Of a stretch of 64,000 nt of DNA, positions 14,510-63,339 are shown in pieces. How positions within the stretch are numbered: the stretch's first letter is position 1; every line of letters starts with the position of its first letter. Origin of the DNA: an uncultured Alphaproteobacteria bacterium. Lineage in GTDB: Bacteria; Pseudomonadota; Alphaproteobacteria; UBA2966. The stretch covers positions 2,130,001-2,194,000 of the forward strand of contig OY282368.1 of NCBI GenBank assembly GCA_958295725.1. The letters run 5' to 3'. Under the pieces are notes generated by a model. That model was not told where the DNA came from, searched no databases, and saw only the letters and a program-made list of their open reading frames with translations. The position numbers were made by a program, and so were the translations under genes.

Positions 14510-14586
14510 TGGTAGCGGAGGAGGGACTCGAACCCCCGACACGCGGATTATGATTCCGCTGCTCTAACCGGCTGAGCTACTCCGCC
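14510..14586 (-). tRNA. tRNA-Met (CAT), CCA encoded
   Basis: On the minus strand the cloverleaf closes: acceptor GGCGGAG pairs with CTCCGCT-type 3' arm, D arm AGCTCAGCCGGTTAGAGC, anticodon stem-loop with ATCATAA (anticodon CAT), T arm GGGGGTTCGAGTCCCTC and encoded CCA. The body matches the alphaproteobacterial elongator tRNA-Met, not initiator tRNA (no CCC/GGG run before the loop) and not the tRNA-Ile2 body. 77 bases. Confidence 0.95.
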
Positions 14587-17195: not shown

Positions 17196-18080
17196 GTGGC
17201 CGAACCCGAAGTCGAATGCATCTGGAAGGGACCCGACATCCTGGGCGAGGGACCGATCTGGAACTGGAAGGAGAACGCGCTCTACTGGGTCGACAGCGAC
17301 CGGCCGGCCGTGCGTCGCCTCGATCCGGCGACCGACGAGGTGACGACCTGGGACATGCCGGAGACCATCGGCTCCATGGTGTTCCGCGAAAAAGGCGGCA
17401 TCGTTGCGGGATTGTGGAAGAGAGGCTTCAGCTTCATCGATCTGGATACCGGCGCCGTCACGCCGATCGCCGACCCCGACCCCGACAATCCGATCACCCG
17501 CCTCAACGACGGCAAGTGCGACCGGGCCGGGCGTTACTGGAGCGGGACCATGGACACGACGTTCAACGACAGGTTGGGAAAGCTGGTGCGGCTCGACACC
17601 GATCTCACGTGCACGGTGATGGACGAAGGGTTCTTCGTCACCAACGGAATCGCCTGGAGTCCCGACGATGGGACCATGTACTATTCCGACTCTCGAGGGC
17701 GCACGGTCTACGCCTACGACTTCGACATCGCCACCGGCGATGTCGCCAATCGGCGGGATTTCATCTCCCGAGAGGGCGAGGACGGGCGCATCGACGGCGC
17801 CACCGTCGACGGCGACGGCTGTTACTGGGCCGCGCACATCAACGGTTGGGAGGTCGCCCAATACGACCCGGACGGACAGCCGATGCGGACGATACCGGTG
17901 CCGGTCCGTTATCCGACCATGTGCACGTTCGGTGGGCGCGACCTCGATGTCCTCTACGTGACGTCCCTGTCCTGGGAGATCGAGCCCGGCGACAACGAGG
18001 CTTCTCCGCTGGCCGGCGCCCTGTTCGCCATCCGGGGAACGGGCGCGACCGGCATCCGCGAGGAGTTCTTCGCGGGATAG
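17196..18080 (+). CDS. SMP-30/gluconolactonase-family lactonase
   Basis: 294-residue six-bladed beta-propeller of the regucalcin/gluconolactonase family, hydrolysing sugar or related lactones with a divalent metal. The metal ligands can be placed: Glu in GEGPIWNWKENALYWVD near the start, Asn in RLNDGKCDRAGRYWSGTMD, Asn in FVTNGIAWSPDDGTMYYSDS and Asp in GATVDGDGCYWAAHI. GTG at 17196 is chosen because GGGAGG lies five bases upstream and family similarity begins within a few residues; the open frame runs on far upstream across mnmA antisense. Divergent from mnmA. No sugar-acid genes adjoin, so the substrate is open. Confidence 0.9.
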   Translation: MAEPEVECIWKGPDILGEGPIWNWKENALYWVDSDRPAVRRLDPATDEVTTWDMPETIGSMVFREKGGIVAGLWKRGFSFIDLDTGAVTPIADPDPDNPITRLNDGKCDRAGRYWSGTMDTTFNDRLGKLVRLDTDLTCTVMDEGFFVTNGIAWSPDDGTMYYSDSRGRTVYAYDFDIATGDVANRRDFISREGEDGRIDGATVDGDGCYWAAHINGWEVAQYDPDGQPMRTIPVPVRYPTMCTFGGRDLDVLYVTSLSWEIEPGDNEASPLAGALFAIRGTGATGIREEFFAG

Positions 18081-18308
18081 CGAAGACCTCTCCCGCCACG
18101 GAGGCGCGCGGCCCCGGCAAAATCCGCGATCGTCGACAATCGAGAGAATTTTCGGCACGACTATCGCCGGGCCTGCCCGGCGTCGCGGCGCAGCGCCGTC
18201 GGGGAAAGCGCCGTTTCAGCCAGGATCTTCAGGTCATCGCCTTCTCGCGCGCGGCCGCGCCTCGCGGAAGCTCCATCGGCGCCACGGGTCGCTCGCGCCC
18301 GCTCCACG

Positions 18309-18504
18309 AGCCATGCAGAAAACGCATGGCTGGTCTGAAGATTTTCAGTCTACCAACGATCTTCCACCGGGACCATATTCATGACGTCCCGGGCGCTTCG
18401 CCCGAGACGGGTCGAGTTGGCCTCCAACATTCGACCGATTTACGTCTCCCAGACGTAATGCCTCCCTGTTACAATTGCCGGGCCCATGCGGCCCGGCGTT
18501 TTTT
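18309..18504 (+). ncRNA. Candidate structured small RNA ending in a terminator
   Basis: The 475-base gap between two plus-strand genes holds a chain of hairpins: AGCCATGC/GCATGGCT (18309-18331), CTGAA/TTCAG (18335-18348), CGGGCG/CGCCCG (18390-18404), a long GGTCGA-GTTGG / CCAAC-TCGACC stem with CCT loop (18410-18436), TACGTCT/AGACGTA (18441-18457), then a terminator with six T. Loops and linkers repeat the CU-rich words CCTCC, CTCCC and CCTCCC, as in alphaproteobacterial trans-acting sRNAs of the suhB/alpha-r kind that mask Shine-Dalgarno sequences. The family resemblance is from memory and unverified. The 5' end is unknown and could be as late as about 18385. Confidence 0.45.
18477..18504 (+). 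terminator. Rho-independent terminator with T6
   Basis: GCCGGGCC pairs with GGCCCGGC across a five-base CATGC loop, then G and six T. It ends the candidate small RNA, or transcription from the SMP-30 gene 400 bases upstream. Confidence 0.75.
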
Positions 18505-18555
18505 CGCCCCGGCTTCGTTTCTGTTCCGCGCGCCATGCGCCGATTGGAGGCATCG

Positions 18556-19176
18556 ATGAGGACCCTCGACTGGTATTTCGACTTTCTCTCGGGTTTCGCC
18601 TATTTGCAACTGAAGCAGTTGAAGGACCTGCCCGGCGATATCTCGATCTCCTGCCGGCCCATGTTGTTCGCGGGACTGCTGCGGCACCACGAAACCAAGG
18701 GTCCGGCTCAGATTCCCCGGAAGCGCGTATACACCTACCGCCATTGGGTATGGCAGGCGAGACAGGCGAACGTTCCCTTCCGCATGCCGCCCAACCATCC
18801 GTTCCCGCCCCTGCCGCCGCTGCGCCTCGCCATCGCCCTCGGGAACGACGTCTCGGCGATCGAGACGATATTCGATCACATCTGGCGAGACGGAGAGGAC
18901 GTCGGCGACCCCCAGGGTTGGGCCCGGTTGACGGACAAGCTGGGCGTCGACGACGCCGGGGCGCTGATCGACGACCAGGGAGTCAAGGACCGGCTCCGGG
19001 AGAACACGGAAGCGGCCGTCGAGCTCGGCCTTTTCGGCGTGCCGACGGCCGTCGTCGACGGCGAGCTCTTCTGGGGACAGGACTCGACGCCGATGCTGTT
19101 CGCCTATCTCGAGAACCCGAACCTGTTCGAGGACGACGAAATGTCCAGGGTGGCGAACCTGCCGAGCGGCGTCTAG
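18556..19176 (+). CDS. DsbA-family / 2-hydroxychromene-2-carboxylate isomerase-like protein
   Basis: 206-residue thioredoxin-fold protein of the HCCA isomerase/kappa-GST group. The N-terminal WYFDFLSGFAYLQ equals the family's DFxSPYxYL, with serine where DsbA has its CxxC, so it is not a disulfide oxidase. FGVPTAVVDGELFWGQD near the end is the second family hallmark (cis-proline and GQDR-like loop). It is likely glutathione-dependent, isomerising aromatic-pathway or related compounds. ATG at 18556 has GGAGG five bases upstream. Single gene, just behind the terminator. Confidence 0.85.
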   Translation: MRTLDWYFDFLSGFAYLQLKQLKDLPGDISISCRPMLFAGLLRHHETKGPAQIPRKRVYTYRHWVWQARQANVPFRMPPNHPFPPLPPLRLAIALGNDVSAIETIFDHIWRDGEDVGDPQGWARLTDKLGVDDAGALIDDQGVKDRLRENTEAAVELGLFGVPTAVVDGELFWGQDSTPMLFAYLENPNLFEDDEMSRVANLPSGV

Positions 19177-19203: not shown

Positions 19204-20190
19204 CTACATGAACAGCCGCTCGCCTTCCATGCCGTCGTAAAGCTGGGCGACGAACTCGCCGTAACCGTTGTAAATCACCGTCGGAATCCTGCCGCTCGCT
19301 CCGAGCACGCGTTCCGTCGCCTGGCTCCAACGGGGATGGGGAACCTCGGGATTGACGTTCGCCCAGAAGCCGTACTCCCGACCCTGAACCTCCTCCCAGA
19401 ACGTTCTCGGCCGCTTGTCCGTAAACGTGAGCCGGTCGATCGACTTGAGCGACTTGAAGCCGTACTTCCACGGAACGGCGAGCCGGAGCGGCGCGCCGTG
19501 CTGCTTCGCCAGCGGCTTGCCGTAGGCGCCCGTCACCATGAACGCGAGATCGTTCGTCGCCTCGGCCATGGTCAGTCCTTCGATGTAGGGCCAGGGATAC
19601 CAGTGCTGCCGTTGGCCCGGGGCCATCTCCGGCTTGTTGAACGTCGCCATCTCGACGTACCGCGCGCCGCTCAGGGGCTTGGCGATCTCCACCAGCGTCC
19701 GGAGCGGGAATCCCGCCCACGGCGCGATCATCGACCAGGCCTCGACGCAGCGGTGACGGTAAACCCTCTCCTCCAGCGATACCTTCGCCAGCAGGTCGTC
19801 GATCCCGATCGTGAACTCCTTCTCGACCATGCCCTCGATGCGGATCTCCCACGGCCTGATCTCCAACCGCTGCGCCGAGCGCCAGATTTCCTTGTGGGAT
19901 CCGTACTCGTAGAAGTTGTTGTACGTGCCGTTGGTCTTCTCGTCCGTGATATCGCGTTCGACACGGTATTTCGGGTTGCGCGCGACCGGATAAAGCCCGG
20001 ACGACGGATCATCCCGCTGCGCGGCCGCCCACGGCATCTCGGCCGACGCCGGCCGGGCCAGCAAGCCCGCCCCTGCCAGGATACCGCCCGCCGCGAGTCC
20101 CTTCATGAGCCGGCGCCGGTCGAGAAAAGCGTCTTCGGGCGTCGCCGCCGCTTCCGGGAGCTCCCAGCCCTCGCGAATCTTGATCAACAT
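19204..20190 (-). CDS. msrP: Periplasmic methionine sulfoxide reductase molybdo-subunit MsrP
   Basis: 328-residue molybdopterin protein that repairs oxidised methionines in the periplasm. A twin-arginine signal is clear (DRRRLMKGLAAGG, followed by a hydrophobic run). The molybdenum-binding cysteine lies in RHRCVEAWSM, and PWKYGFKSLKSI and GAPLRLAVPWKYG are typical. Full length. ATG at 20190 has GGAGG seven bases upstream. The haem membrane partner MsrQ is normally next door but neither side carries it; the electron donor must be coded elsewhere. Confidence 0.95.
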   Translation of the reverse strand: MLIKIREGWELPEAAATPEDAFLDRRRLMKGLAAGGILAGAGLLARPASAEMPWAAAQRDDPSSGLYPVARNPKYRVERDITDEKTNGTYNNFYEYGSHKEIWRSAQRLEIRPWEIRIEGMVEKEFTIGIDDLLAKVSLEERVYRHRCVEAWSMIAPWAGFPLRTLVEIAKPLSGARYVEMATFNKPEMAPGQRQHWYPWPYIEGLTMAEATNDLAFMVTGAYGKPLAKQHGAPLRLAVPWKYGFKSLKSIDRLTFTDKRPRTFWEEVQGREYGFWANVNPEVPHPRWSQATERVLGASGRIPTVIYNGYGEFVAQLYDGMEGERLFM

Positions 20191-20258
20191 CCCTGCCTCC
20201 TGAATTCGTCCGCGCGAATGACACCCCCGACATAAGGGCCGCCGGTCCCGGCCACAAG

Positions 20259-21116
20259 TCACACCTGCGTGATGTCGGCCGACCGCGCGCCGCCGCCTCG
20301 CGCATCGTCGAAAGCGACCGTCACCCGCCCGAACTCCCCGAAATCGGCGACCGCCGTATCCCCGGCATCGGCATAGGCCAACCCGGTGGCGAGCCCGGTC
20401 GCGACGACCTCTCCGGCGCGGAGACCCATCCCCATGCCGGAAAGATGGTTGGCGAGCCAGAGGAGCGCGTTCACCGGGTGCCCGAGGACGTTGCCGCCGC
20501 TTCCGCGCGTGACGGGCTTTCCATTGATGGCCAGGGTCACCTCGCGCGACGCCAGATCCTCGCGGCGCCAGTCGGCGGCCGGCTCGCCCAGGACCAGGCC
20601 TCCGGACAGCATGTTGTCGGCGACGAGGCTCGGAACCCCGACGGCCGTCCAGTCCCGATACGCCGTATCCACGATCTCGATCAGCGGAATCATCGCGTCG
20701 ACGGCGTCGGTCACGGCCTCGGCGTCGAACGGCGCCCCCGACGAAGGCAAATCCCTGCCGAGACGGAACCCGAACTCGGGCTCGACGAGGCGCATGAAGT
20801 ACTTGCCGCCGTCGAGCGTGACCGGGCTCCGGTCGACCCTGCCGGCCATGACCCGCCCGCGACAGGGCTCGTCGGCCTTCAGGGTCCGCCGGGCGACGTC
20901 GCTCGTGCAGCTCAGCTTCCAGCCGACGGACTCCCCGCCCCAGGCTTCGACCAGGCGGTCCTGGATCGCGTATGCCTCGGCGAGCGTCCCGGGCGCCAGG
21001 TCCGGCGGCAACGCCTCCAGCTGTTCGCGGCGGCGATACGCCGTGGCCAACAGGCTCGCGGCACGCGCCGCCGCTCCATCCATGACGCTCGCCGTTCCCC
21101 GGTCTTCCGGCGTCAC
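20259..21116 (-). CDS. 2-oxopent-4-enoate hydratase-like protein (FAH superfamily)
   Basis: About 285 residues of the MhpD/fumarylacetoacetase-fold hydratase and decarboxylase family. AYAIQDRLVEAWGGESVGWKLSCTS, the EPEFGFRLGRDLP strand with the metal-binding Glu-x-Glu, and HPVNALLWLANHL are visible. It would hydrate 2-hydroxypenta-2,4-dienoate or decarboxylate 4-oxalocrotonate in meta-cleavage pathways, but no ring-cleavage genes are near. GTG at 21116 overlaps the TGA of the upstream EF-G-like gene (GTGA); ATG at 21083 is the alternative. C-terminal residues after GRVTVAF look family-atypical but short. Confidence 0.85.
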   Translation of the reverse strand: MTPEDRGTASVMDGAAARAASLLATAYRRREQLEALPPDLAPGTLAEAYAIQDRLVEAWGGESVGWKLSCTSDVARRTLKADEPCRGRVMAGRVDRSPVTLDGGKYFMRLVEPEFGFRLGRDLPSSGAPFDAEAVTDAVDAMIPLIEIVDTAYRDWTAVGVPSLVADNMLSGGLVLGEPAADWRREDLASREVTLAINGKPVTRGSGGNVLGHPVNALLWLANHLSGMGMGLRAGEVVATGLATGLAYADAGDTAVADFGEFGRVTVAFDDARGGGARSADITQV

Positions 21117-62123: not shown

Positions 62124-62265
62124 ACGCCGCGCGTCCGGCCGTTCCGGCGCGGCGGTTGGACGACGCGGCGTCGCGGGACTAGAGTCCCCCTGCGTTCGGG
62201 AATCGTCGGCGTCCGTCTCGTGGTGCTTGGCGTGTGGCCGGACGAGCACCACAGGGAGGAACAGC

Positions 62266-63339
62266 ATGAATTCCAGGACAGCAATCCGGTTGTCGGCCGC
62301 CGGCCTCGTCGCCGCGAGCCTGGCGACCGCCGGCGCGGGACCGGCCCTCGCCGGCATGTTCGATGGCGTCGAAGTCCGCGTCGCGAGCTTCGGCGGCAAA
62401 TGGCGCAACCTGATCGAGTCGACGGTCGGCGAGGCCTTCGCCGCGGAAGGCGGCAAGATGGTCTACGTCGCCGGGTCGCCGAGCCCCCATTTCGGCAAGC
62501 TGGTGGCGTCGCGCGGCGCCGAGCCGCCGTTCGACCTGATGGAAACGACGGACGACTTCCTGCCGCCGCTGTTGGCGAAGGGCTACCTCGACGAGATCGA
62601 CTACGGCAGGGTTCCCAACGCCTCGGCGCTGGCCGAACGGGACCGGTCGAAGCACTGGGTGAAGACCTGGACCACCCAGTCGGCCATCATCTACAACACC
62701 GAGAAGTTCGAGGAGCACGGCATTCCGGCGCCGAGGAAGTACGCGGACCTGAAGCATCCCAAGCTCCAGGGCAAGATATCGGTGCCCGACATCGCCGGCG
62801 GCGGCGTGATGCCCTGTCTCGTCGGCATGGCCCTGGAGGGCGGCGGCGACGAATCCAACATCGACCCGGCGCTCGACCTGATCGCCAGCCTCGAGGTCAA
62901 GGCCTTCTGGAAGTCGAACTCGGCGCTCCGCACCCTGCTCAAGAGCGGGGACGTCTGGGCCGCCTGCGCCGGCGTCCACACCATGGGCCGTCTTCTGGGC
63001 GCGGCGCCGTTGTGGGCGACGCACGTCGAGGTCAAGCCCGGCGTCTTCGGCGTGCTCAAGCAGGGGTGGCTGGTCAAGATCAAGGGCGGCAAGAACGACG
63101 CGGCCCGCGACTGGATCGTCAACCGGTTCATCAGCAAGCAACACCAGCGCGGCGTCATGAAGGGCTGGCTGCTGTCCTCGCGGGAGGACGTCCTCGCCGA
63201 CTACGCCTCGGAACCCGGCATGGACTTCATGCGGCTGAAGCCCGACGAGGTCGCGAACATGTACTCGATCGATTTCTCGAAGGTCGACCGCACGGTCTAC
63301 ACGGAGAAGTGGAACCGCAAGGTGAGCGCAGGCTCCTGA
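62266..63339 (+). CDS. ABC transporter substrate-binding protein (PotD/PotF type)
   Basis: 357 residues. Signal peptide (SAAGLVAASLATAGAGPALA) and periplasmic-binding fold: VRVASFGGKWRNLIES, WTTQSAIIYNTEKFEEHGIP and AARDWIVNRFISKQHQ. Captures a polyamine-like or other small organic substrate for the two permeases. AGGGAGG lies seven bases before ATG. The ATP-binding subunit is absent downstream, where a helicase gene begins instead. Confidence 0.92.
   Translation: MNSRTAIRLSAAGLVAASLATAGAGPALAGMFDGVEVRVASFGGKWRNLIESTVGEAFAAEGGKMVYVAGSPSPHFGKLVASRGAEPPFDLMETTDDFLPPLLAKGYLDEIDYGRVPNASALAERDRSKHWVKTWTTQSAIIYNTEKFEEHGIPAPRKYADLKHPKLQGKISVPDIAGGGVMPCLVGMALEGGGDESNIDPALDLIASLEVKAFWKSNSALRTLLKSGDVWAACAGVHTMGRLLGAAPLWATHVEVKPGVFGVLKQGWLVKIKGGKNDAARDWIVNRFISKQHQRGVMKGWLLSSREDVLADYASEPGMDFMRLKPDEVANMYSIDFSKVDRTVYTEKWNRKVSAGS

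Follow-up and report, generated by a model that had tools for sequence, protein, structure and literature searches.

The AbcR small RNAs have been studied in rhizobia, Agrobacterium and Brucella, and SorX and SorY have been studied in Rhodobacter; the two have been treated as separate stories. The Cuckoo/CcsR RNAs carry CCUCCUCCC loops and lie behind a DUF1127/ccaF1 gene. AbcR1 and AbcR2 are described as RNAs of 121 and 114 nt (PMC8844928). Motif M1 (CUCCCA) lies in the first AbcR hairpin and motif M2 (GUUCCC) between hairpins, and both are described as being used for target control (PMC5461406). A VtlR/LsrB box of the form GCAT-N3-TG-N3-T is described in PMC7486931 and PMC8844928; in the promoter of S. 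meliloti abcR1 it spans -61 to -49. Additionally, Agrobacterium vtlR is described as following trxB (PMC7486931), and a cysteine redox switch has been described for LsrB (PMC8844928). SorX of R. sphaeroides is reported to be cut from the 3' UTR of ompR-1 (PMC8625941).

We describe here a locus that looks like a counterpart, in many other Alphaproteobacteria, of the rhizobial AbcR RNAs. It lies in a stretch of 64,000 nucleotides from an uncultured alphaproteobacterium, which we call the window. A sequence-only reading had proposed that a structured small RNA with CU-rich anti-Shine-Dalgarno segments begins at 18309 and ends at a T6 terminator, in a gap without genes. Our results suggest that 18309-18504 very probably holds a real regulatory RNA of about 120 bases, with a predicted start near 18385 instead of at 18309. 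Three things speak for the proposed RNA: it is deeply conserved, a predicted operator precedes it, and some of its pairs show compensatory changes. The gap is also as described, as we found no convincing gene between 18080 and 18556; the long open reading frame that spans it was rejected, being a GC-rich gene read through in another frame. The region and its downstream neighbours are as follows.

18309-18504, plus strand: candidate sRNA region, in the intergenic gap from an upstream stop at 18080 to a downstream start at 18556
18556-19176, plus strand: DsbA-like / 2-hydroxychromene-2-carboxylate isomerase-like gene, named from our reading of its sequence
19204-20262, minus strand: msrP, protein-methionine-sulfoxide reductase catalytic subunit (NCBIfam NF003767, 409.8 bits, cut-off 207)

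The upstream neighbour in the window, judged by its sequence, is presumably SMP-30/gluconolactonase-like. NCBIfam gave no match for the isomerase-like gene at 18556-19176. By eye, such a gene also lies 3' of the sRNA in the relatives G001 and G002 (loci L213 and L214), and an msrP-like gene is next in line in G002 too (L214, 3583-4569). The window's genome also contains an hfq gene.

Within the candidate region, we predict an RNA with the following parts.

18385-18504, plus strand: predicted sRNA of about 120 nt, its 5' end estimated to within a few bases
18386-18408, plus strand: hairpin 1, GC-rich and without a CU motif (fold and consensus of 8 relatives)
18410-18436, plus strand: hairpin 2, with GCCUCCAAC at its top (fold)
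18440-18458, plus strand: hairpin 3, UUACGUCUCCCAGACGUAA, with CUCCCA, the AbcR motif M1, at 18446-18451 (fold)
18459-18476, plus strand: single-stranded linker UGCCUCCCUGUUACAAUU, a second anti-Shine-Dalgarno segment, unpaired in the window fold
18477-18504, plus strand: intrinsic terminator, stem 18477-18497 and U tail, a likely Hfq site (terminator scan and fold)

The RNA is predicted to have four hairpins, including the terminator, a CUCCCA loop and a single-stranded GCCUCCCUGUU linker. The row of stable hairpins in the earlier reading is borne out by the fold of 18309-18504 on the plus strand: its energy is -85.9 kcal/mol, 200 dinucleotide shuffles average -58.0 (z -6.0), and not one of them is as stable. 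Four of the hairpins fall within 18385-18504, but the first of the row, 18309-18331, is best read as a DNA operator, as predicted below. The stretch 18386-18504 alone folds at -57.8 kcal/mol (z -6.7). The reverse strand of 18309-18504 folds equally well (z -6.3); thus, the strand is not given by folding and rests on the T6 terminator and the homologues. This terminator was confirmed as a 9-pair stem followed by TTTTTT ending at 18504, with one found in the region against 0.6 expected in shuffles. The repeated CU-rich motifs are present, as CUCC at 18422, 18446 and 18462, but three copies do not exceed chance expectation: the shuffles average 1.19, and 9.7% of 2000 mononucleotide shuffles have at least three. 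The weight is carried by the placement and conservation of the CUCC motifs.

A DNA search matched 23 of 61 related genomes, and most of these matches fall at query positions 150-215, which hold hairpin 3, the linker and the terminator. Spread on plasmids was considered and rejected; a distant search of plasmids returned a single record, Tistrella pTM3. A pattern scan of genome contigs gave at least 119 stretches, and the genera among the matches listed include Azospirillum, Thalassospira, Magnetovibrio, Kiloniella, Nisaea, Reyranella, Belnapia and Roseomonas. The search pattern behind these named loci already specifies most of hairpin 3 and the linker, so that invariance there is partly built in. 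From 124 selected cores, 55 were aligned (alignment A1), and a covariance model, R1, was built from those 55 sequences. R1, which covers the 3' module, matched 68 of 142 alphaproteobacterial genomes at E<=1e-3 and 54 at E<=1e-10; the window's genome has a single copy. For distribution and linkage we rely on this class sample of 142 genomes and not on the named loci. Rfam at its gathering thresholds gave no match at the locus, nor at the sRNA in 20 homologous loci, and we consider it very probable that this is a widely conserved sRNA family, as predicted here, that is not in Rfam at cut-off. The sole Rfam match above cut-off within the window is a tRNA gene at 14513-14586 on the minus strand. 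At three loci (L027 of Thalassospira australica, L110 and L112), two sRNA copies stand in tandem at a spacing of about 370 bases, and each copy has a dyad, an arrangement that recalls AbcR1/AbcR2.

The structure is conserved unevenly. The consensus fold of 8 close relatives retains hairpin 1, hairpin 3 and the terminator, and hairpin 2 is absent from it. At least one double-sided, pair-keeping change was found in 9 of the 21 predicted pairs of hairpin 1 and the terminator in these relatives. Four of the eight predicted pairs of hairpin 1 have at least one, as do five pairs of the terminator, where the alignment is ragged. Hairpin 3 is near-invariant in A1, most rows of which were collected with a pattern fixing much of it; as it hardly varies, it is uninformative by covariation. 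Directly 5' of hairpin 3, a hairpin of changing sequence occurs in 100 of 133 loci (77 distinct) among the matches listed, against 30.4 in shuffles. In the linker, CCUCCCUG is invariant in A1, although the search required it in most rows, and at least 7 of its 8 bases are unpaired in only 50 of 133 loci (simple MFE fold; among the matches listed).

These data bear on whether the gap holds a mere transcription terminator with chance hairpins in GC-rich DNA. GC-rich hairpins are common here and the CUCC count is within chance, but the z-scores of -6.0 and -6.7, the near-invariant module in many families and its linkage to vtlR (see below) make this explanation hardly credible, and we favour a dedicated sRNA. 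Two further elements precede its predicted start.

18313-18336, plus strand: predicted VtlR/LsrB operator, in which the dyad ATGC-N7-GCAT (18313-18327) overlaps the box GCAT-N3-TG-N3-T (18324-18336)
18374-18379, plus strand: predicted -10 element CATATT, placed by its offset from the dyad

The first hairpin, together with the weak next one (to about 18368), is most likely promoter DNA upstream of the predicted start. The sequence GCATGGCTGGTCT, comprising the right half of the dyad and the bases that follow, fits the published VtlR/LsrB box. The window box at 18324-18336 matches exactly, and its distance fits a start near 18385, as does the predicted -10 site. At the S. meliloti locus (L216), a dyad and box of this kind precede the first ar15 copy and share 17 of 24 bases with the window; the ar15 match starts 61 bases further downstream. 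In the published S. meliloti promoter of abcR1, the box starts at -61. Counting 61 bases from the window box in the same way gives the predicted start of 18385, and the -10 element at 18374-18379 agrees with it.

The operator signature recurs among homologues. We compared 134 distinct loci with enough flanking DNA, from 144 copies, with mononucleotide shuffles. Among the matches listed, the exact dyad ATGCR-N5-YGCAT is present in 80 of the 134 loci against 0.1 in shuffles, and the exact published box in only 30 against 1.96; thus, as a signature for this group, the dyad serves better than the box. The extended pattern ATGCRN5YGCATRGC is unique in the 3.67-Mb genome, its sole occurrence being at 18313-18330. 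A -10-like hexamer follows the dyad at an offset of 41-49 in 42 of the 80 dyad-bearing loci among the matches listed (10.75 in shuffles). No convincing -35 box was seen before the window's own -10 element or in the homologous loci, where the best match is mostly 2-3 of 6 bases; a poor -35 is expected for an activator-dependent promoter. A generic sigma-70 scan of the region found no promoter.

The RNA is linked to the gene for the regulator that this operator suggests. In 40 of the 54 strong-hit class genomes, vtlR and the RNA share a strand and the RNA follows less than 1 kb behind the gene. Fifty of the 54 have vtlR somewhere, including ten in which the kilobase before the RNA lacks it; in the other four vtlR was not found at E<=1e-60. 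Among the matches listed, vtlR lies within 1.5 kb upstream of 90 of 124 named copies and is missing from 17; a further 17 had less than 1 kb of upstream sequence to examine. The exact dyad occurs in only 8 of 20 copies without an adjacent vtlR, the window's own copy included (among the matches listed). In the window's genome, trxB-vtlR is at 0.695 Mb, 1.45 Mb from the site at 2.148 Mb that holds the RNA together with the isomerase-like gene and msrP. As vtlR, the RNA and the isomerase-like gene are together in G001 and G002, the block was split between vtlR and the operator in the window's genome. The operator stayed with the sRNA after its separation from trxB-vtlR.

We identify the LysR-type regulator as VtlR/LsrB on two grounds. 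Its gene comes after trxB in G001, in G002 and in the window's genome, where NCBIfam confirmed trxB, and the protein of the window's genome shares 51% identity with the one annotated as VtlR in R. leguminosarum. NCBIfam had no VtlR model to name the regulator of the window's genome. This protein agrees with S. meliloti LsrB at 46/65 of its first residues, compared with 50% identity over the whole length. VtlR contains no cysteine in the window's genome (L206, 2012-2905, near 695.4-696.3 kb), G001 and G002 (L213, L214) or Azospirillum (L221). S. meliloti LsrB, in contrast, has three cysteines, and R. leguminosarum VtlR also differs from the cysteine-free proteins. The LsrB cysteine redox switch therefore cannot work in VtlR of the window's genus, and the signal sensed must differ.

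The position behind vtlR also raises the question of whether the RNA is of the SorX type, processed from the 3' UTR of an upstream transcript and lacking a VtlR-driven promoter of its own. The best Rfam match is indeed to SorX, although only from hairpin 3 to the terminator, R. sphaeroides SorX is cut from such a 3' UTR, and vtlR is just upstream on the same strand in most homologues. However, the SorX score is below cut-off, and a conserved operator with a -10 at a fixed distance lies between vtlR and the RNA. In the window, the upstream gene is a different one (presumably SMP-30/gluconolactonase-like), yet operator and RNA are kept. We regard 3' UTR processing as unlikely. The downstream side suggests another possibility, a cis-acting 5' leader or attenuator of the isomerase-like gene, which follows in G001 and G002 as well. 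A strong terminator precedes that gene, however, and other genes take its position elsewhere: an MFS transporter is annotated behind vtlR in Azospirillum (L221), and arsR is there in the S. meliloti and Rhizobium counterparts. Some loci also have two tandem copies, and we find a cis-acting role very unlikely. An sRNA transcribed from its own promoter remains our preferred reading.

Of the class genomes, 22 have vtlR without an R1 match, and the region behind vtlR was inspected in 13 of them. By eye, some of these regions have the dyad or CU-rich hairpins (e.g. L196-L198), and neither was seen in others (e.g. L192, L194, L195 and L204). At L186 (G055:C3:147200-148300), two different CUCCCA RNAs stand in tandem behind vtlR; the first is a weak ar14 match (28.7 bits, cut-off 58.8) and the second was found by R1. 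On a Microvirga ossetica plasmid (L223, 1108-1178), a suhB/MmgR match above cut-off (52.9 bits) is found a short way upstream of a VtlR-like gene, with transposases around.

The comparison with described RNA families gives a mixed picture. The covariance search proposed in the earlier reading, against suhB and alpha-r models, did not place the RNA: suhB/MmgR (RF00519) scored 21.2 bits against a cut-off of 41, so membership was rejected, and ar15 (RF02345, cut-off 40 bits) was not among the matches with E<=10 in 18080-18600. As a positive control, the S. meliloti ar15 copies scored 110.2 and 106.5 bits, and Shinella and Rhizobium records served likewise. Scans of 142 and 385 class genomes with ar15 gave 0 matches, a count that carries no weight, since the control gave no signal in them either. 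S. meliloti, Shinella and R. leguminosarum each have two ar15 copies, the tandem AbcR1/2, behind vtlR (97-127 bits). The best Rfam match is SorX (RF02784), at 39.4 bits and E 4e-8, below the cut-off of 46.6 and covering only hairpin 3 to the terminator. The SorX-like RNAs behind vtlR score 49.3 bits in Paracoccus and 53.6 in Octadecabacter, over the cut-off of 46.6, and R1 picks up both (E 1e-8 and 5e-8, respectively). The AbcR copies of S. meliloti and Rhizobium are missed by R1, which gives 10.2 bits (E 0.14) in Shinella. Thus, kinship with SorX is by sequence, whereas kinship with AbcR is only in place, promoter, size and the CUCCCA loop. G036 has a SorY-like RNA behind vtlR (62.1 bits, cut-off 111) and two SorX copies elsewhere.

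The window RNA shares with AbcR1/2 (ar15; Rhizobiaceae and Brucella) the place behind trxB-vtlR/lsrB, which holds for the family and is split in the window's genome, and the VtlR/LsrB box 61 bases before the start, here predicted. They also share CUCCCA in a hairpin, a single-stranded CU-rich linker, a terminator, and tandem copies in some genomes. Unlike AbcR1/2, the window RNA is unmatched by the ar15 model, has different hairpins and usually occurs as one copy. The CUCCCA hairpin is at the 5' end in AbcR and in the 3' half, as the third hairpin, here; the linker has GUUCCC in AbcR and CCUCCCUG / GCCUCCCUGUU here. With SorX and SorY (RF02784, RF02651; Rhodobacterales), the window RNA is similar over hairpin 3, the linker and the terminator, and SorX- or SorY-like copies share the place behind vtlR in Paracoccus, Octadecabacter and G036. 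It differs in falling below both cut-offs, in that R. sphaeroides SorX comes from the ompR-1 3' UTR (PMC8625941), and in that the Paracoccus and Octadecabacter copies, when aligned to R1, lack most of hairpin 3. The suhB/MmgR RNAs are alike in having a hairpin, a CUCCCU linker and a terminator, and Rfam clan CL00108 includes both suhB/MmgR and ar15. The BjrC1505 (RF02356) consensus has CCUCCCuGUuA before its terminator; membership was rejected at 16.5 bits (E 1.2, cut-off 50). BjrC1505 is above cut-off at other loci of G055 and G126, both of which also have a vtlR-linked R1 match. On comparison of sequences and models, the best reading is that the RNA is AbcR-like in predicted design, place and promoter, SorX-like in its 3' part, and no ar15 member by the Rfam model.

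The window family takes the arrangement of regulator, operator and RNA into the Rhodospirillales and other orders, with a reach that includes Azospirillum, Thalassospira, Magnetovibrio, relatives of Roseomonas, and Reyranella. Our literature search found no paper on an AbcR sRNA in the Rhodospirillales, and none that joins CCUCCCUG with an sRNA and Shine-Dalgarno. Searches joining most of LsrB, VtlR, AbcR, SorY, Azospirillum and Rhodobacter found only Agrobacterium work. In the available part of an Azospirillum sRNA paper (PMC7685610), AbcR appears only in reference titles, and a window-type RNA may already be among its sRNA candidates. It is possible that the trxB-vtlR-sRNA locus is ancestral to most Alphaproteobacteria, and that AbcR1/2, the SorX/SorY-like RNAs and the window family are its lineage forms. 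The operator would then have been kept and the RNA remodelled, with the cysteine switch gained in rhizobia or lost elsewhere; we consider this history evenly balanced between true and false. R1 and the promoter signature can be used for annotating the RNA.

Based on the conserved sequence and structure, the operator, the vtlR linkage, and the presence of vtlR and hfq in the genome, we propose that the locus encodes a VtlR-activated trans-acting sRNA of about 120 nt that represses mRNAs, aided by Hfq, through Shine-Dalgarno pairing. We think this model is likely to be correct; transcription, VtlR binding, Hfq binding and targets are its inferred parts. The LysR-type VtlR/LsrB would activate the sRNA promoter through the dyad and box, and transcription from about 18385 to the RNA's own terminator would yield the trans-acting RNA. 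The CUCCCA loop and the CCUCCCUG linker may then pair with the Shine-Dalgarno regions of several mRNAs, probably in an Hfq-dependent manner, with Hfq assisting the pairing of sRNA and mRNA. This pairing would lower the translation and stability of the target mRNAs, as AbcR1/2 do with transporter mRNAs. Hfq-aided Shine-Dalgarno pairing appears the most likely action because CUCCCA is present exactly and the linker holds CCUCCCUG.

A scan of the genome for targets found 31 CAGGGAGG-N3-12-ATG sites, against 13 for the reversed pattern (one seed). Thirty of the 31 sites were given loci, which led to 25 candidate ORFs; 20 of these were scanned with Pfam, and L249-L253 were left out. Solute-binding proteins (TctC, DctP and SBP) account for 3 of the 20 scanned ORFs. 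This is a weak hint, and a lead only, that solute-binding proteins are among the predicted candidate targets. One of the three is in the window itself, where CAGGGAGG-N6-ATG at 62252-62268 on the plus strand (L237) precedes a periplasmic solute-binding protein gene (PF13343); judged by this site, its mRNA is a possible target of the sRNA.
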